Both the position numbers and the translations under genes were made by a program. The notes beneath the pieces were generated by a model, which was not told the origin of the DNA, made no database searches, and was given only the letters and a program-made list of their open reading frames with translations. Shown piece after piece: positions 51,451-59,992 of a DNA stretch of 59,992 nt (position 1 is the first letter of the stretch; every line of letters starts with the position of its first letter). Source of the DNA: Anaeromyxobacter diazotrophicus (GTDB lineage Bacteria > Myxococcota > Myxococcia > Myxococcales > Anaeromyxobacteraceae); NCBI RefSeq assembly GCF_013340205.1, contig NZ_BJTG01000016.1, forward strand, positions 1 through 59,992, read 5' to 3'.

Positions 51451-52185
51451 TCAAGGCGCGCGAACGACGAAGGTGCCCGCGGCCCGGTCGTGCAGGGCGC
51501 GTGGACTCGAGGTGAAGAGCGCGAGCCAGGTGCCGGCGCCCAGCGCCGCGGTGCCGAGGAGCGCCAGCGCGGCGCGCGCGGCCGCCCGCCCCATCCCGGG
51601 ACCCTCGCCGTCGCGCTCGACCACCGCCAGCCCCAGCAGGCGATCGCCGAGGGTGCCCCCCAGGAGCCCGTGCGCCAGCGCCGCATAGGCCACGAACGCG
51701 AGCGCGCCCAGTGCCAGCCCGGCCGGGAAGAGGCCCCGCCAGAGGCTCACCCCATCCGGGAACGCCCAGGCCGCGAGCCCGACCGGCGCGGCGACCCCCA
51801 GCGCGACGAGCGTCCCGTCGGCGAAGCCCGCCGCCAGCCGCGCTCCCAGCGGGGCCGTCTCCGGCTCCTCCGCCGCGCCGCAATCGCGAGCGTCGAGGTC
51901 CTGGTCTCCCTCGCGGTCGCGATCGCACTCACCGTCGCGGTCGAGGTCGCGGTCGCACGCGCGCTCGCGGTCGAGGTCGAGGTCGAGGTCGCCACCGCCC
52001 GCCCCCTCCCCTTCGTCCGGCGCATCGGGGAGAGGGTCGAGCCTCCCCCGCGCTCGCCGGTCGAGGTCGAGCACGCGGTCGAGCCGCGCCGGCCGCGGCT
52101 CCTCGCCGAGGCGCAGCGGCGCCGCGCAGACGGCGCACGCCAGGGCTGCGGGCGAGGCGAGCTCGTGACAGCGGGGGCACTCCAC
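51451..52185 (-). CDS. RDD-family membrane protein with zinc-ribbon start
   Basis: A 244-residue protein. The N-terminus has two CxxC pairs (ECPRCHE, ACAVCAAPL), a likely zinc ribbon. An Asp/Arg/Leu repeat stretch (about residues 65-100) follows, encoded by a hexamer track. The RDD domain has three or four membrane helices, including LVALGVAAPVGLAAWAF and LLGGTLGDRLLGLAVVERDG. The domain end SPRALHDRAAGTFVV is characteristic. The start is GTG. The gene precedes the MshEN/HEAT gene with touching ends. Function unknown; RDD proteins are sometimes linked to ion transport. Confidence 0.78.
   Translation of the reverse strand: MECPRCHELASPAALACAVCAAPLRLGEEPRPARLDRVLDLDRRARGRLDPLPDAPDEGEGAGGGDLDLDLDRERACDRDLDRDGECDRDREGDQDLDARDCGAAEEPETAPLGARLAAGFADGTLVALGVAAPVGLAAWAFPDGVSLWRGLFPAGLALGALAFVAYAALAHGLLGGTLGDRLLGLAVVERDGEGPGMGRAAARAALALLGTAALGAGTWLALFTSSPRALHDRAAGTFVVRAP
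51911..51993. repeat. degenerate GCGGTC/GAGGTC hexamer track in the RDD gene
   Basis: About 83 bases of imperfect GCGGTC, GAGGTC and related hexamers. On the minus strand they encode alternating Asp with Leu or Arg. Similar tracks occur at 34695-34770 and 59124-59183. Confidence 0.7.
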
Positions 52186-52235: not shown

Positions 52236-52961
52236 CTAGCGGAGGTCGCCCGCGAGGTGCTGGACGAGCGCCGCCGCGACGATCGCGGCCGTCTCGTTGC
52301 GGAGGATGCGCGGGCCGAGCGTGGCGAGGCGCGCGCCGGCCGCCAGGGCCGCCTCGACCTCCTCCGGCGCGAAGCCGCCCTCCGGCCCCACCACGAGGAG
52401 GTGTCCCGCCGCGCCCGGGTCCACCACCTCCGCCACCGGCTCGCCGCCCGCCTCGTAGAAGAGCACCGTCCGGAACCCCGGCGGCGCCGCGGCCAGCGCC
52501 GCAGCGAGCGTCGTGGGCGGGTCCACCACCGGCACGTCGGCGCGCCCGCACTGGCGCGCCGCCTCCGCGGCGATGCGCTGCCAGCGGCGCGCGCGCTCCG
52601 CCCCGCGCTGCGCGTCGAGCTTCACCACCGAGCGGACCGCCTGGAAGGGCGTGAGGCGCGCCACCCCCACCTCGGTCGCCTTCTGCACCGCCACGTCGCT
52701 CCGCTCGCCGCGCGCCAGGGCGAAGGCCAGGTGGACCTTGGCCGCCGGCGCCGGCGCGTCGCGGCGCGGCCCGAGCTCCAGCGCGAGCCCGGACTCGGTC
52801 GCGGCGAGCCGCGCCTCGCGCGCGCCCCCCTCGCCGTCGAAGACCTCCACCGTCGTGCCCGGGCCGAGCCGCAGCACCGCGGTGAGGTAGTGCGCCTCGC
52901 TCGCCGTGAGCGCCGCCCGCGCCCCGCCGAGCCGCGCCAGCGGGATGAAGAGCCGCCTCAC
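52236..52961 (-). CDS. rsmE: 16S rRNA m3U1498 methyltransferase
   Basis: SPOUT-fold methyltransferase acting on the 30S subunit. The 241-residue protein has SEAHYLTAVLRLGPGTTVEV near the start, AVQKATEVGVARLTPFQAVR, then LLVVGPEGGFAPEEVEAAL and LGPRILRNETAAIVAAALVQ, which form the knotted SAM site. The GTG start overlaps the prmA stop (GTGA), so both are translated together; this pairing is common. Length is normal. Confidence 0.95.
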   Translation of the reverse strand: MRRLFIPLARLGGARAALTASEAHYLTAVLRLGPGTTVEVFDGEGGAREARLAATESGLALELGPRRDAPAPAAKVHLAFALARGERSDVAVQKATEVGVARLTPFQAVRSVVKLDAQRGAERARRWQRIAAEAARQCGRADVPVVDPPTTLAAALAAAPPGFRTVLFYEAGGEPVAEVVDPGAAGHLLVVGPEGGFAPEEVEAALAAGARLATLGPRILRNETAAIVAAALVQHLAGDLR

Positions 52962-53821
52962 GGCGCCGGCCTCGCGAGCGCCAGGAGGCGCCACTCCGCC
53001 TGCGACCGCTCCCGCGCCGGGTCGGGCACGAGCCCCTGCGCCAGGTAGGCCGCGCGCACCTCGTCCTCCTGTCCGGCCAGGATCCCGGAGAGGAGCAGCG
53101 CGCCGCCCGGCGCCAGCCGCGCCGCGATCCCCGGCGCCAGCTCGACGAGCGTGTTGGCGAGGATGTTCGCCACGACGATCGGGAACCGGCCCTGGACCTC
53201 GTCCGGCGCGGCCAGCTTCAGCTCGAGCTGCACGCCGTTGCGCTCCGCGTTCTCTTCCGCCACCCGCAGCGCCACCGGGTCGTTCTCGGTGGCCGCCACC
53301 CGCCCCGCGCCGAGCTTCCGCGCCGCGATGGCGAGCAGCCCCGAGCCCGTGCCCACGTCGAGCACCGCCGCCCCCGGCGACGCGGCCAGGAGCTCGTCGA
53401 GCCCCGCCAGGCAGAGCGCCGTGGTGGGGTGCGTGCCCGTCCCGAAGGCCATGCCCGGATCGAGCACCACCTCGACCGTCCCCGGCGGCGGCGGTGACGG
53501 CGTCCAGGAGAAGCGGATGAAGACGCGCCCCACGCGGAACGGCGCCAGCCCCGCCTTCCAGGTCTCGCTCCAGTCCTGATCGGCGAGCTCCGCCACCGCC
53601 CCCTCGAGGCCCAGCTCCGCCGCCGCCTCGGTCGCAGCCTGGCGCGCCGCGAAGAACGCGACCACCAGCGCCCGCCCGGCGGAAGGCCGCGGCGTCCCGG
53701 GCATCGGCGCCACCGAGCCGTCGCGCACCTCCGCCCCCGCCGCCCCCGCGTCGAGCAGCAGCGCCGCCGTGTCGTCGGCCTCCGCCTCCGGGACGTCCAC
53801 CGTGAGCGCGTAGCTGGGCAT
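52958..53821 (-). CDS. prmA: ribosomal protein L11 methyltransferase
   Basis: Methylates L11. The 287-residue protein has an N-terminal substrate-recognition region (YALTVDVPEAEADDTAALLL) and a Rossmann SAM domain. The latter has FGTGTHPTTALCLAGLDELL, VLDVGTGSGLLAIAARKLGA and FPIVVANILANTLVELAPGI. The ATG at 53821 follows TTAAAC at a 7-nt gap, so the mRNA may be nearly leaderless. It is followed by rsmE with a 4-bp overlap. Confidence 0.94.
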   Translation of the reverse strand: MPSYALTVDVPEAEADDTAALLLDAGAAGAEVRDGSVAPMPGTPRPSAGRALVVAFFAARQAATEAAAELGLEGAVAELADQDWSETWKAGLAPFRVGRVFIRFSWTPSPPPPGTVEVVLDPGMAFGTGTHPTTALCLAGLDELLAASPGAAVLDVGTGSGLLAIAARKLGAGRVAATENDPVALRVAEENAERNGVQLELKLAAPDEVQGRFPIVVANILANTLVELAPGIAARLAPGGALLLSGILAGQEDEVRAAYLAQGLVPDPARERSQAEWRLLALARPAP

Positions 53822-53853: not shown

Positions 53854-55506
53854 TCACTCCAGCCCCGCGATCGGGAAGCCCCGCGGGTAGCGCACCTCGT
53901 AGCGCAGCTCGACCACCTTCTGCTCCCGCGCGCCGAGCGCGAGCTCGTGGATGCGGACGCCGGGGCGCTCGGGGTCCTCGCGCGTCGGGGCGGTCGTGCC
54001 GTCGAGCACCGCCACCGCGATCTTCTCGTCGCGGCTCACCGGCACGAGGTCGAGCAGCCTCACCGCGACCGGCGACGCGTACCGGTTCTTCACGCCGATG
54101 CGGACCCGGAACCGGTAGACCTCGTCCTTGGTGAGCAGCCCCGCCGTCTCGTGCCTGCGCTCGAGCACCTTGCGGTCCACCTCGATCCGGTCGTCCGCGC
54201 CGAAGGCGAGCTCGAGCTCGCCGCCGGCGGGGGTGAAGGGGAGCGCGGTGCGCCCGGCGAACTGCTCGCCCACGTACACGCCCGCCGTCCCGCCGAGGAG
54301 CGGGAAGCCGGTCTCGTTCACCGCCTTGGCGGTGAGGAAGGCCGCCCCGTCCACCCGCGGCGCCGCGGTGCGGACCACCTCCGCCTGGAGCGGGAAGCGC
54401 GCCAGGGAGATCTTCCGGGCCTGCCCCGAGCCGTCCACGGTCTCGCGCCGCGGCGCGGTGAAGGCGGTGGCGAGGAGCCCGTCCTCGACGGTGGCTTGCG
54501 CCGCCTCCACCTCGTACGACTCCGCCTCGCTCTTCTCGGCGCGCTCCGCCGGCGCCGGCGCGGCCGCGCTCGGCGCCGCGGCGGAGCGCCGGAGCGCCTG
54601 CGTGGCCACCATCGGCCTCGGCGGCTCGGCCCGGTGCAGGTAGAGCGGCTCGAGGCGCGGCACGAACAGGCCGCGGGCGGGCTGCGCGGTGGAGACCGAG
54701 AGCGCGACGCCGCTCCAGTCCTCGCCCGTGCGCTGCCAGACCGAGCCGAGGAAGGAGAGCTCCATCCTGGAGGCCTCCGGCAGGAGGCGCGCGTCCCAGA
54801 CCGGCGTCCAGCCGGCGGAGGGGACCGCGTACGACACCGCCAGCTCGAGCGCGCCGTCCCGCTCCGCCTCGAGCTCGACCGCGACCGTCTTGGTGGTGAC
54901 CGCGCGCTTCGCCTGGACCTTGTCCAGCTCGGCGCGCGCCTGCGCGACCCGCCGCGCCAGCTCCCGCCGCGCCGCCTCGGCCTTGCGCGCCTCGCCGGTG
55001 GCCTGGGCGGTCTCGGCGGAGACGAACGCGGCCAGGTCGCCCCACTCCTTGGCCGAGACGCCGCGGACCGCCAGGTTCTTCGAGCGCTCCTCCGAGTAGG
55101 TCGAGCGCAGCGACTTCACGAACTCGAGGCGCGCCTGCGCCGCGCGGATCCGGTCCTCGAGCGCGCGGTCGTCGTCCTGCAGCCGCTCGAGCCGCTCCTC
55201 CGCCGCGCGCCCCTCCGCCGCCGCAGCCTCCGCCGCCGTGACCCGCTCGACCGTGACCCCGAACACGCGCGCCCGCGCGGTCCCCTTCCCCTCGACCCGG
55301 ATCGAGTCGTCGTCGAGCTGGTCCGGCAGCCCGGCCAGCAGGACGCGCGCCGCTCCCGCCGCGAGCTCGACCCGCGCCGCGCGGGTGACCCGCGCAGACG
55401 AGCGGTAGACCGTGACCGCGTCGACGCGGGACGGCGCCGTCACCGCGGCGGGCGCGGCGAGGGCGAGGGCGGGGAGCAGGGTGGTGAGCAGCAGGGCTGG
55501 GCGCAT
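53854..55506 (-). CDS. MuiA-like (DUF4139) secreted protein
   Basis: A 550-residue exported protein with a signal peptide (LLLTTLLPALALAAPAA). It resembles mucoidy-inhibitor MuiA proteins: an N-terminal DUF4140-like part (VDAVTVYRSSARVTRAARVE), a coiled-coil middle (about 110-225) and a C-terminal DUF4139-like domain. The last includes YAVPSAGWTPVWDARLLPEA, WSGVALSVSTAQPARG and YRFRVRIGVKNRYASPVAVR. The family's biochemical role is not known. It lies 33 bp before prmA on the same strand but is probably separate in function. Confidence 0.8.
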   Translation of the reverse strand: MRPALLLTTLLPALALAAPAAVTAPSRVDAVTVYRSSARVTRAARVELAAGAARVLLAGLPDQLDDDSIRVEGKGTARARVFGVTVERVTAAEAAAAEGRAAEERLERLQDDDRALEDRIRAAQARLEFVKSLRSTYSEERSKNLAVRGVSAKEWGDLAAFVSAETAQATGEARKAEAARRELARRVAQARAELDKVQAKRAVTTKTVAVELEAERDGALELAVSYAVPSAGWTPVWDARLLPEASRMELSFLGSVWQRTGEDWSGVALSVSTAQPARGLFVPRLEPLYLHRAEPPRPMVATQALRRSAAAPSAAAPAPAERAEKSEAESYEVEAAQATVEDGLLATAFTAPRRETVDGSGQARKISLARFPLQAEVVRTAAPRVDGAAFLTAKAVNETGFPLLGGTAGVYVGEQFAGRTALPFTPAGGELELAFGADDRIEVDRKVLERRHETAGLLTKDEVYRFRVRIGVKNRYASPVAVRLLDLVPVSRDEKIAVAVLDGTTAPTREDPERPGVRIHELALGAREQKVVELRYEVRYPRGFPIAGLE

Positions 55507-55628
55507 GGTCGTGGCCTCCTCCTCACAGGGACGCACGAACCTGGAAAAGGATCTACCGACCTCTCCCCACATCCCCGCCGCCCGCCTTTTCGCCCGCCGG
55601 TCGAAACGCGCTAGCATGCCCCTTCCCC

Positions 55629-57920
55629 ATGGGACGCGAGCTCCTCCTCATCGATCCGGATCCGGCGCTGACGGAGGCCATCCGGCGCGCCTTCGCGCCG
55701 GCCGGCTGGAGCGTCACCGCGCTCGCCGCGGGAGAGCCGGCGGTGGACCGCTGCCGGGCCAGCCGGCCGGACCTGGTCCTGCTCGCGGCCGAGCTGCCGG
55801 ACATGAGCGGCTTCTCGGTGTGCAACCGCCTGAAGCGCGCCCTCGCCTCGCTGCCGCTCATCCTCTACACGACCGAGGCGAACGCCTCGGCCATCGAGGC
55901 GCACCGGCAGTCGCGCACCCACGCCGACGACTACCTGCGCCAGCCGCTCGACCTCGCCGATCTGGTGGGGCGCGCCAGCCGGCTCGCGGGCGACGGCGCC
56001 CCTGCCCCGGCGCCCGCGCCGCCGCCGCGCAAGCCGCGCGGGGCGGGCGGGCCGCCGCCCATCCCGGGGGCGGCCGCGCCGCGCGCCGCCGCGCCGGCGC
56101 CCGCGGCGGTGCCGCTGCCGGCCCCGCTCCCGCCGGCGCCCCCCGTCCCCGACGCGGGCGCGCTCGAGGCGCTCTTCGCCGACTGGCCGCGCGACCCGTC
56201 GCCGCCGCGCGGCACGCCCGAGGAGCGGGTCGAGTTCTTCCGCGAGCGGCTGCGGGTGAAGGACGCGTTCCTGGGGCGGGTCAAGGAGGCGGTGGCGGCC
56301 CACCAGCGCGCGTCCACCTCCCTCCACGCGGCGCTCGAGGCGCGCCAGGACGCGCTCGCCGCCGCCGAGGTGGCGCGCCGCGAGCTGGAGCGGCGCCTGG
56401 CGGAGACGGACGAGGCGCTGTCCGCGGCCGGCGCCGCGCGCGACGAGGTCGCGCGGCGGCTGGCCGAGTCGGAGGGCACGCGCCAGTCGCTCTCCGAGGT
56501 GCTCTCCGAGACCATGCAGGCGCAGGAGACCGCCGAGCAGGGCTGGTCGCAGCGCCTGGCCTCGGCCGACGACGCCCGCGCGGCGCTGGAGGCGTCGCTG
56601 GCGGAGGCGCGCGCCAGCGGCGTCGCCGCGCTCGAGGCGGAGCGCGCCGCCCGCGCCGAGGCCGACGCCCGCGCCGGCGCCGAGCGCGACGAGCTGCAGG
56701 TGGCGCTCGCCGGCGCGCGGGGCGAGCGCGACGCGCACGCCGCCGACGCCTCCCGGCTCCAGGCGGAGCTCTCGCACGCGCTGCAGCAGGCGGAGGAGGC
56801 GCGCGCCGCCGCGGCGCGGGAGCTCGCGGCCGAGCGGGGCGACAAGGACGAGGCGCGCGCGCGGGCCGAGGGGCTGGCGCAGGAGCTGGCCGAGGCGCGG
56901 GCGGCGGGCGAGGCGCTCCGGGGCGACCTGGCGCGCGAGCGCGCCGGGCGCGAGGCGGCCGAGGAGGCGCTGCGGCTCGCCCGCGGCGAGGCCACGGCGC
57001 AGGCCGAGAAGGCCGCCGCGCTCGAGCACGCGCACCGGGCGCTGCAGGCGGAGCTGGCGGCCTCCCAGGCGCAGACGGCCGATCTGGCCCAGGCGCTCGA
57101 CGAGGGGCGCGCCTCCGCCGCCGGCGAGGTGGGCCGGCTCAGCACGGCGGTCGCCGAGGCGGCGCGGCGCGAGGCGCAGCTCTCCGCGGAGCGCGACGAG
57201 CTGGCGGGCAAGCTCTCGGCCGAGCTGCGGGCCGGCGAGGCGGCGCGGGCCGAGGCGGCGGCGCTGGCGGCGGAGGTGCAGCGCCTGGCGGCGCTCGAGC
57301 CGCAGGCGGCCGAGGCGCCCCGGCTCCGCCGCGACCTGGCGCACGCGCAGGAGGTCCTGCAGCAGCGCACCCAGCAGGTGGAGGCCGCGGCGCGCACCGC
57401 CCACCAGGCGCAGGCCGACCGCGAGCGGGTGAAGGAGCAGGCGGCGGTCGAGCTGCAGGGTCGCGCGAGCGAGCTGGCGCGGCTCGGCTCGGAGCTCAAC
57501 GCGCAGAAGCGGCGCGCGGCCGAGCTGGAGGCGCAGGCGAGCGCGCGCGAGGCGGCGCTGCAGCGGGCGCAGGCCGAGGCCGAGGCGCAGCGGCGCGCGC
57601 TGACCGGCGAGGCGGCCCAGGCGGAGCAGCGGCACGCGGCCGAGGCCGAGCGCCAGCGGGCGGCGCTGATCGAGCTGGAGAAGCGGCTCGAGGCGGTCGC
57701 CCGCGCCGAGGCGCAGGCGCGCCGCCGGGTGGCGGAGCTGGAGCGCGACCACGCCGGCGCCGGGGCGCGCGACGCGCAGCTCGCGGAGGCGCAGGCGGCG
57801 CTGGCGAAGCTCCGCGAGGACTTCGACGACCTCCGCTCCGAGAACGATTTTCTGAACGGCGAGGTGGCGCGCTACCACCAGAAGAACAAGGATCTGCTGG
57901 CGCAGCTCAAGAAGGCCTGA
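55629..57920 (+). CDS. pseudo-receiver/coiled-coil protein of FrzS/AglZ type
   Basis: A 763-residue cytoplasmic protein. Residues 1-120 form a receiver-like domain, but the phosphoacceptor Asp is Ala53 (DLVLLAAELPDMSG) and the conserved Lys of the KP pair is Gln (YLRQPLDL), so it should not be phosphorylated. A Pro/Ala linker spans about 125-185. Almost all the rest (about 200-755) is continuous Ala/Glu/Arg-rich coiled coil. This layout matches Myxococcus FrzS and AglZ, which organise motility at cell poles; orthology is not established. TAGCAT at 55612-55617 may be a -10 box giving a near-leaderless mRNA. hemW follows 7 bp downstream. Confidence 0.75.
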   Translation: MGRELLLIDPDPALTEAIRRAFAPAGWSVTALAAGEPAVDRCRASRPDLVLLAAELPDMSGFSVCNRLKRALASLPLILYTTEANASAIEAHRQSRTHADDYLRQPLDLADLVGRASRLAGDGAPAPAPAPPPRKPRGAGGPPPIPGAAAPRAAAPAPAAVPLPAPLPPAPPVPDAGALEALFADWPRDPSPPRGTPEERVEFFRERLRVKDAFLGRVKEAVAAHQRASTSLHAALEARQDALAAAEVARRELERRLAETDEALSAAGAARDEVARRLAESEGTRQSLSEVLSETMQAQETAEQGWSQRLASADDARAALEASLAEARASGVAALEAERAARAEADARAGAERDELQVALAGARGERDAHAADASRLQAELSHALQQAEEARAAAARELAAERGDKDEARARAEGLAQELAEARAAGEALRGDLARERAGREAAEEALRLARGEATAQAEKAAALEHAHRALQAELAASQAQTADLAQALDEGRASAAGEVGRLSTAVAEAARREAQLSAERDELAGKLSAELRAGEAARAEAAALAAEVQRLAALEPQAAEAPRLRRDLAHAQEVLQQRTQQVEAAARTAHQAQADRERVKEQAAVELQGRASELARLGSELNAQKRRAAELEAQASAREAALQRAQAEAEAQRRALTGEAAQAEQRHAAEAERQRAALIELEKRLEAVARAEAQARRRVAELERDHAGAGARDAQLAEAQAALAKLREDFDDLRSENDFLNGEVARYHQKNKDLLAQLKKA

Positions 57921-57927
57921 AGCCGCG

Positions 57928-59115
57928 GTGGGCCCCGTCCCGCCGGGCGGGCCCCACCGCTCGCGCCGCCCCTTGCGCCCCTTCGGCCTCTACGTCCACT
58001 TCCCCTACTGCACGGTCCACTGCCCGTACTGCGACTTCGCGGTCGCGACGGAGCGCGCGATCCCGCAGGAGCGCTACACCCGCGCCGTGCTGGCCGAGCT
58101 GGCGCTCCGCGCCCCCGGCTTCGAGGGCCTCGCGCCGCGCTCGCTCTACCTGGGCGGCGGCACGCCCTCGCTCTGGGACCCGGAGCGGGTGGCGGAGGTG
58201 GTGGCGGCGGTGCGCGCCCGGTTCGCGCTCCCGGTCGGCGCCGAGGTGACCCTGGAGGCGAACCCGGAGGCGGCCGACCGCGGCCGGTTCGCCGCCTACG
58301 CGCAGGCGGGGGTGAACCGCTTCTCGGTCGGCGTGCAGTCGCTCGACCCCGGCGTGCTCGCCAAGCTCGGCCGGCGGCACCGGCCCGAGGACGCGGAGCG
58401 AGCCGTGCGCGCCGCCGCCGAGGCGGTGGAGGACGTGGCGGTCGACCTCATCTACGGCGCGCGCCGGTCGACGGTCGCCATCGCGCGGGCGGACGCGGCG
58501 CGGGTGGCCGCCTGGCCGGTGACGCACGTCTCCGCCTACGCGCTCACGCTCGACCGCGAGGCGCTGGCCGAGGAGACGCCGCTCGCCCGCCTCCGCCGGC
58601 AGGGGCGCCTGCCGCTGCCCTCCGACGACGAGGTGGTGGCGCAGGCGCGCGCCCTGCGCGGCGCGCTGCGGCGCGGCGGGCTCGCGCGCTACGAGATCTC
58701 GAACTTCGCGCGCCCCGGCTTCGAGTCGGTCCACAACCGCCTCTACTGGGAGTCCGAGAGCTACCTCGGCCTCGGCGTCGGCGCGTACGGCGCGCGGCAC
58801 GCCGAGGGCGGCGAGCACGCCGCGCGGTACGGCAACGCGCGGACCCCCGCCGCCTACCTGGCGGCGGTCGAGGCGGGGCGGCTGCCGACGGCCGAGGAGG
58901 ACCTCCTCGGCCCGCGCGAGCTGGCCGAGGAGCGGCTCATGCTGGCGCTGCGCCTGCGGGAGGGCGCGCCGCTGGCCGCGATCGCGCCGTCGCGCCGTGG
59001 CGAGATCGAGGCGCTCGTGCGGGCCCGGCTGGCGGTGGTGCGCGGCGAGCGCCTCGTGCTGACGAGCCGCGGCCTCGACCTCCACAGCGCGGTGGCGGAG
59101 CGGCTGATGCCGTGA
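57928..59115 (+). CDS. hemW: radical SAM haem chaperone HemW
   Basis: Radical SAM protein of 395 residues. The cluster-binding CxxxCxxC appears as YVHFPYCTVHCPYCDFAVAT; the CPYCDF ending marks HemW, a haem-binding chaperone, rather than coproporphyrinogen dehydrogenase HemN. YLGGGTPSLWDPERVAEV, VNRFSVGVQSLDPGVLAKLG and ARYEISNFARPGFESVHNR agree, as does a C-terminal winged-helix-like part. It starts with GTG 7 bp after the coiled-coil gene, so it is likely its cotranscribed neighbour. Confidence 0.9.
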   Translation: MGPVPPGGPHRSRRPLRPFGLYVHFPYCTVHCPYCDFAVATERAIPQERYTRAVLAELALRAPGFEGLAPRSLYLGGGTPSLWDPERVAEVVAAVRARFALPVGAEVTLEANPEAADRGRFAAYAQAGVNRFSVGVQSLDPGVLAKLGRRHRPEDAERAVRAAAEAVEDVAVDLIYGARRSTVAIARADAARVAAWPVTHVSAYALTLDREALAEETPLARLRRQGRLPLPSDDEVVAQARALRGALRRGGLARYEISNFARPGFESVHNRLYWESESYLGLGVGAYGARHAEGGEHAARYGNARTPAAYLAAVEAGRLPTAEEDLLGPRELAEERLMLALRLREGAPLAAIAPSRRGEIEALVRARLAVVRGERLVLTSRGLDLHSAVAERLMP

Positions 59116-59123
59116 GGGTGAAG

Positions 59124-59183
59124 CCGAGGTCGCGGTCGCGGTCGAGGTCGAGGTCGGGGTCGAGGTCGGGGGTCGGGCTCGCG
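59124..59183. repeat. intergenic GCGGTC/GAGGTC hexamer track
   Basis: About 60 bases of imperfect GCGGTC, GAGGTC and GGGGTC hexamers, starting 9 nt after the hemW stop. It is the non-coding counterpart of the tracks at 34695-34770 and 51911-51993. Confidence 0.7.
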
Positions 59184-59197
59184 GTGGCAGGGGCCCC

Positions 59198-59327: not shown

Positions 59328-59992
59328 TCACGCTGCCGAAATCTCCACCCCTTCGCCGGACCGCCTCGCGGGCTCCGGCCCGCTCCACGGCTTCCCGCCG
59401 AGGAACCACCGCAGCGCCTCAGGCGCCCGCCCCACCACGCGCAGGTGGCCGGCGTGGATGCACCGGAGGTGGTGAAAGGCGCAGAGGCCGAGCTGGTTGT
59501 CGAGCTCGTCCCCGCCGCCTTGCGAGCGGAAGAGGACGTGGTGGGCGTGCGTCGCGCGGCGGCTGCAGCCGGGGACCTGGCAATGGCCCTCGTCCCGCTC
59601 CCGGACCTTCCGCGAGCGGGTCCGGGCGCACTTCCCGCCCTTCCAGGTGTCGAGGAAGTGCTGCGCGAGGACGGCGAGGCAGGTCCCGAGCGGCAGCCGC
59701 TTCCCGGTCCGGTCGCGGACGGCCTGCACCGCGGCGGCGAGCACCGCCGCCATCCGGAGCGCCAGCGGGACGGCCAGCTTCCCCTGCGCACGCATCCGCC
59801 GCTCGGCCTCGCCCTCGAGCTCGCGCCGGAGCGCGACGCAGGTGAGGCCCTTCGCCCGCGCGGCCCAGCGGGTGATCTCCGGCTCGGGCAGCTTCGAGAG
59901 GAGCCGCAGCTTCTCGAACGGCAGCCCCTCGCGCTTCGCCTCCTGGAGCGCCGGCGAGGCCCAGCGCCGCTCCTCGACCTTGGCCCGCTCCT
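59328..59992 (-). CDS. HNH endonuclease family protein (5' end beyond the window)
   Basis: The last 220 residues of a gene that continues past the right edge; its frame is open to 59992. The visible N-terminal part is helical (LQEAKREGLPFEKLRLLSKL, RRELEGEAERRM). The C-terminal HNH domain has a CxxxxC zinc pair (CQVPGCSR), then THAHHVLFRSQGGGDELDNQ and LCAFHHLRCIHAGHL, which supply the ββα-metal site. This architecture resembles the dispersed DUF222-like HNH proteins found in high-GC genomes. Whether it is a homing, defence or housekeeping nuclease is unknown. Starts inside the visible region (for example at 59795) are less likely because homology-like sequence continues upstream. Confidence 0.8.
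   Translation of the reverse strand, partial: ERAKVEERRWASPALQEAKREGLPFEKLRLLSKLPEPEITRWAARAKGLTCVALRRELEGEAERRMRAQGKLAVPLALRMAAVLAAAVQAVRDRTGKRLPLGTCLAVLAQHFLDTWKGGKCARTRSRKVRERDEGHCQVPGCSRRATHAHHVLFRSQGGGDELDNQLGLCAFHHLRCIHAGHLRVVGRAPEALRWFLGGKPWSGPEPARRSGEGVEISAA

Follow-up and report, generated by a model that had tools for sequence, protein, structure and literature searches.

Is the gene directly before hemW on contig NZ_BJTG01000016.1 of Anaeromyxobacter diazotrophicus the FrzS or AglZ of this organism or a further member of the same family, and why does it stand beside hemW? The gene, an open reading frame (ORF) with an ATG start at 55629..57920 on the plus strand that is backed by orthologues, lies within positions 1 to 59,992 of the contig (the genome comprises 4.83 Mb in 17 contigs), and this whole stretch of 59,992 nucleotides is called the window. 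T3 is our working label for the 763-amino-acid product and its orthologues. An earlier note on this DNA, made from the letters alone, had described the protein as FrzS/AglZ-like, which stands for its layout and for the receiver, whose top match by sequence and by fold is FrzS, but not for its identity: as judged from sequence, T3 is neither FrzS nor AglZ and represents a third paralogue of this family of pseudo-receiver coiled-coil proteins. We consider it rather probable that T3 is a phosphorylation-independent scaffold, which most likely serves gliding as part of the AglZ branch of the MglA polarity network, the last step being a lead only. Overall 195 genomes of the phylum were scanned, the family Anaeromyxobacteraceae (f1) being covered by 24 genomes, and the same protein was found in records of Anaeromyxobacter oryzae, A. 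soli, A. oryzisoli and A. terrae.

All parts of T3 are encoded on the plus strand. The pseudo-receiver (residues 1-119, 55629..55985) is defined by the Pfam family Response_reg (residues 6-114, 3e-15), the match to FrzS, the residue comparison and a structure model, and is followed by an Ala/Pro-rich linker, recognized by its composition of 22 Pro in 60 residues (121-180, 55989..56168). Comparison of orthologues delimits a conserved mid block with the pattern WPRDPxPPxGTPEExxEFFRxRLR (residues 181-222, 56169..56294), which has a weak counterpart in AglZ where the coil begins, and a conserved C-terminal tail, ENDFLNGEVARYxQKN (residues 733-757, 57825..57899); both are common to the six full-length orthologues, which are 45-54% identical to the window protein. 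The coiled coil itself extends over residues 226-763 (56304..57917). A hydrophobic period of 3.52 over residues 197-763, a signal reached by 0 of 1000 shuffles in a region with 3 prolines, is in agreement with the earlier claim of more than 500 residues of coiled coil and gives a coil of about 540 residues.

The closest solved relative of the receiver by sequence is the Myxococcus xanthus FrzS receiver (2.5e-17), which is also the best fold match in the PDB (2i6f, E 1.8e-10, TMq 0.83) of an AlphaFold2 model of residues 1-128 built from 13 sequences (mean predicted local distance difference test score, pLDDT, 84.9). The replacement of both phosphoacceptor and Lys, as read in the earlier note, was confirmed: Ala53 (codon at 55785) aligns with FrzS Ala53 and CheY Asp57, and Gln105 (55941) stands in for the Lys. 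A third loss, which the note had not listed, is Pro10 (55656) in place of the second acidic residue; Thr81 is retained. According to the accessible part of PMC1974792, Ala53 occupies the phosphoacceptor position of FrzS and its receiver cannot be phosphorylated, and the accessible part of PMC4546325 reports no FrzS/AglZ paralogue with a functional phosphorylation site. Position 53 is Ala in 8 and Ser in 3 of the 11 T3 receivers, Ala, Ser or Cys in FrzS rows and Arg in all eight AglZ rows. The receiver Lys is kept in 7/11 T3 receivers, with Gln in the window alone and Ala in three (L047-L049). Because all 11 carry Ala or Ser at position 53 but seven still have the Lys, the two losses differ in age, the loss of the Asp being old and common to FrzS and AglZ and that of the Lys recent.

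Furthermore, His92 (55902) and Tyr102 (55932) are invariant in 11 T3, 11 FrzS and 8 AglZ rows, and changing these residues in FrzS abolished social (S) motility, as described in the part of PMC1974792 at hand. The most conserved element is the beta3-alpha3 loop together with alpha3 (residues 55-71, 55791..55841), the predicted partner face, which is identical in 11/11 T3 receivers (mean pairwise identity 1.00 vs 0.74 over residues 1-119). Some of these rows are near-copies of one another, the window receiver being only about 58-66% identical to the others; mean pairwise identity of alpha3 amounts to 0.73 among FrzS rows and 0.62 among AglZ rows.

The genome of the window contains mglA, aglZ and also frzS, so that the check for mgl and agl genes proposed earlier turned out positive. 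FrzS (572 amino acids) is encoded on contig C12 and AglZ (1329 amino acids) on contig C2. The FrzS C-terminal motif EERVxKAYxKIKxDEK...KALxIAxQLL is present in FrzS of C12, which alone in the genome matches with an E-value of 1e-8 or better, and was not found in T3. In the main receiver tree (37 receivers, no outgroup rows, L193 included), in which FrzS and AglZ rows were labeled by us from ORF length, C-terminus and mid block, T3 (11 rows) forms its own clade with support 98/94, separate from those of AglZ (8 rows, 100/100) and FrzS (12 rows, 84/76). The phylogeny suggested in the earlier note thus places T3 in the same broad family and outside both of its named members. T3 and two receivers of family f9, whose genes are also near hemW, form a clade (89/85). 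In a second tree, with four ordinary receivers added and the long row L116 left out, T3 and AglZ reach 92/96 and 100/99. T3 as sister of AglZ was not rejected by the approximately unbiased test (p-AU 0.33). An exclusive pair of T3 and FrzS was disfavoured (p-AU 0.010), as was one of FrzS and AglZ (0.029); these values are not relied on because both arrangements also shut out rows L101 and L102 beside FrzS. All hemW-linked receivers as one clade were neither supported nor rejected (p-AU 0.08), with L193 outside in the best tree, and T3, AglZ and all hemW-linked receivers together 0.022.

Which functional branch T3 belongs to was addressed by its distribution in the Anaeromyxobacteraceae. The presence call covers 17 of the 24 genomes, G002, G008, G014, G016, G017, G018 and G023 being counted neither way: T3 is seen in 13, 11 by the receiver and two (G001, G007) by the tail, and is cleanly absent in four. 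An AglZ match exists in 18/24 genomes, including all 13 that bear T3; in four of the 18 it is confined to the receiver (G003 and G008 near 1e-34, G014 and G017 at 1e-61 or better). In the four T3-less genomes, in which prmA and hemW adjoin (G003, G006, G011, G015), AglZ is missing in three and matched over the receiver only in one, the MglA orthologue is kept in 4/4 and the FrzS tail in 3/4. The three cleanly T3-less genomes of genus g6 lack an AglZ match and carry 0, 0 and 1 AgmX/PglI-tail proteins; G016 and G023, outside the T3 count, have no AglZ match and three such proteins each. MglA is matched in 24/24 genomes (at least 81% identity to M. xanthus MglA in 20) and the FrzS tail in 22/24; for MglA the protein sequence itself was used as probe instead of Pfam Arf, which matched 3/24 genomes and not that of the window. 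This distribution suggests that the presence of T3 follows that of AglZ and not that of FrzS or MglA. As a separate observation, ten genomes (G004, G005, G009, G010, G013, G016, G019, G020, G021, G022) carry, besides true MglA and a 41-44% copy, a further MglA-like GTPase with 53-59% identity to MglA, which did not appear among the matches obtained for the genome of the window.

The second part of the question concerns hemW, which is located at 57928..59115 on the plus strand and whose product matches TIGR00539 best of the families listed (197.9 bits, just below the cut-off of 205.4). The 7-bp link given in the earlier note is correct from the T3 stop at 57920 to the GTG at 57928. With the alternative TTG start at 57973 the gap is 52 bp, and since this start, as judged by eye, brings the beginning of the protein closer to that of its relatives, the 7-bp figure depends on the hemW start chosen. 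In the Anaeromyxobacteraceae relatives T3 stands divergently beside prmA in 10/10 loci (L040-L049), and wherever the contig also carries hemW, this gene follows downstream in the same orientation. In G001, of the same genus as the window, and in G007 the tail of T3 immediately precedes hemW at the edge of a contig. In genus g4 an OPT-family transporter (named by eye) on the opposite strand separates T3 from hemW in all four long loci (L040, L042, L044, L045).

The note had called this link unexpected, which does not hold, and a linkage by chance is rejected, because the pairing recurs in many myxobacteria. A mid-block profile matches 121 of the 195 genomes. The counts of hemW within 4 kb refer to the mid-block matches listed, with 111 rows taken in, 39 open frames of AglZ length (1143-1548 amino acids) left out and 109 genomes remaining: in 79 of these genomes hemW follows on the same strand at a distance of less than 4 kb. 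Most belong to family f4, which we take to be the Myxococcaceae because the FrzS receiver of its genome G050 stands beside M. xanthus FrzS in the trees; here the count is 75 of the 81 genomes with a coil gene, or 71/77 without G113, G103, G104 and G124 (1516-1869 amino acids), which were kept by judgement as rows before hemW or from a genome with a separate AglZ row. In the other six f4 genomes hemW is on another contig (five) or none is listed (one). As a control, 36 of the 39 left-out rows have a hemW place, and in 0/36 is hemW within 8 kb downstream. Of 13 f4 loci read, 11 have the first ATG of hemW 6-27 bp after the coil gene and G042 has a non-ATG start at 0 bp; G162 is the exception with at least 220 bp. 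Outside f4, hemW lies less than 4 kb downstream of the coil gene in G000, G031, G036 and G164, with other ORFs between in G031 and G036 (f9); in G164, a member of another order, the coil bears a receiver and is separated from the hemW match by 39 bp. Both f6 genomes looked at have, 26-27 bp upstream of hemW, coils that lack a receiver and whose tail resembles that of T3 (by eye); of two f7 genomes, one has a coil 64 bp upstream and the other an ORF in between. No such coil was seen just before hemW in G163, two f3 genomes, G024 (f2) and G030 (f8). Receivers on hemW-linked coils occur in the Anaeromyxobacteraceae and two further families, and receivers plus mid block with no hemW link seen also in G163, G183 and G072. 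In the stretches read of 14 f4/f3 loci (L083-L086, L088, L089, L091-L096, L099, L100) there was no receiver on the coil ORF or on any other ORF of at least 60 amino acids. So the pairing of coil and hemW is widespread and the receiver is its variable part.

We assume that the pseudo-receiver would work without phosphorylation, as in FrzS, and would be always on, offering its conserved loop and alpha3-beta4-alpha4 face to a partner, and that the coil may oligomerise and position the complex in the cell; the putative service to the gliding branch of the MglA network is a lead. According to the parts of the literature accessible, FrzS binds SgmX via alpha3-beta4-alpha4 (PMC12632262), the FrzS coil suffices for polar localisation (PMC11580455), and A. 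dehalogenans shows surface motility and carries frz, dif, pil and agl genes (PMC2330069). For T3 itself, participation in gliding or polarity is plausible. Should FrzS and AglZ have a third paralogue with an invariant surface of its own, this would raise the question of a third output.

Several points weigh against a third paralogue in the service of gliding. With ordinary receivers added FrzS does not come out as a single clade (it does so in 58% of bootstrap trees), and hence the deep branches of the receiver tree are unsure. T3 was not found in G002, G014 and G017 despite a strong AglZ match; hemW likewise went unfound in G014 and in G002 (95% complete, 30 contigs), and on a 3.9-kb contig of G017 a different ORF precedes hemW. 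The T3-less genome G003 keeps three AgmX/PglI-tail proteins. Moreover, the co-occurrence of T3 and AglZ may reflect as few as two losses (g3, g6), or one, and no motility gene was named among the T3 neighbours. Finally, the f4 coil gene corresponding to T3 is without receiver in 12 f4 loci read, and for this reason the pseudo-receiver may be dispensable for the core job of T3, and this job may be something other than motility.

The strongest rival is a scaffold that serves heme delivery or respiration through its tie to hemW, or else the general organisation of the cell, instead of motility, with the receiver as an add-on in some lineages, since the coil stays beside hemW even where it has no receiver. 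We regard this as a serious possibility, if a less probable one than the scaffold of the polarity network: irrespective of how long it is and of whether it has a receiver, the coil immediately precedes hemW in f4, f6, one f7 genome, one f10 genome and the window, and the gap is 0-27 bp in 12 of 13 f4 loci read. However, tight gaps by themselves are no proof of a common function, hemW remains in the four genomes where T3 is absent, and the pairing is loosened by the transporter in genus g4 and by the wide gap in G162. It is also conceivable, at rather long odds, that an unnamed hemW-linked scaffold family gains and loses a FrzS-type pseudo-receiver as a plug-in, which would couple the polarity network of MglA to heme or respiratory assembly, with the Anaeromyxobacter form as a third MglA-network connector. 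The receiver-less genes at the same place are a natural test of what the pseudo-receiver adds to the coil scaffold, and owing to the pairing with hemW, the function of the unnamed gene can be tested by deleting it in a laboratory myxobacterium. A decaying receiver without function seems very improbable: the Lys is lost in 4/11 T3 receivers (window, L047-L049), but no residue of loop and alpha3 varies among the 11, in contrast to the drifting linker and coil, and the guanine-cytosine content by codon position (0.88/0.56/0.99) is typical of a normal coding frame. That T3 is simply this organism's FrzS or AglZ, as layout and best PDB match might suggest, is hardly credible, and orthology to either was ruled out by their other loci in the genome and the separate receiver clade.

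On the other side of T3 the window carries a MuiA-family protein gene (DUF4139/DUF4140, 53854..55617, minus strand) and then prmA (52958..53821, minus strand), the divergent neighbour of T3 in relatives. The MuiA-family gene was not found between prmA and T3 in the relatives' loci searched, which gave only weak coiled-coil-like matches. GAGGTC/GCGGTC hexamer arrays are located at 51911-51992, inside a coding gene (DLDLDR-type stretch), and at 59125-59185, just after hemW. Near-matches to GAGGTCGAGGTCG number 15 in the window vs 0.37 expected. The ORF at 59328-59795 (minus strand) at the contig end has a CxxxxC...HAHH motif by eye and is presumably HNH-endonuclease-like.

Three known or related systems can be compared with T3. 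The receiver-less f4 coil, for which we found no name, shares the place beside hemW and the mid block, with prmA near in 8/11 loci, but has no receiver, its N-terminus is of a DPLADLRESL type (by eye) and the T3 tail is not evident. No third FrzS/AglZ paralogue is named in the titles and abstract openings found, or in the text of PMC4546325, its supplementary 26-sequence tree set aside; the accessible part of this paper derives FrzS and AglZ from one duplication in the Cystobacterineae ancestor and has each of them connect MglA to one motility machine. M. xanthus FrzS (MXAN_4149) has in common with T3 the Ala53 receiver, His92/Tyr102 and the coiled coil, whereas T3 is without the FrzS C-terminal motif, has Thr81 where FrzS has Gly, falls into a separate clade, adjoins hemW and has a coil longer than the 235 residues given for FrzS in the part of PMC4546325 at hand. 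M. xanthus AglZ (MXAN_2991) resembles T3 in the pseudo-receiver, the His/Tyr pair, the long coil and a weak common mid block, and differs in Arg at position 53, in open frames of 1336-1531 amino acids, in its separate clade and in a coil of 1076 residues according to the same source, compared with about 540 in T3.

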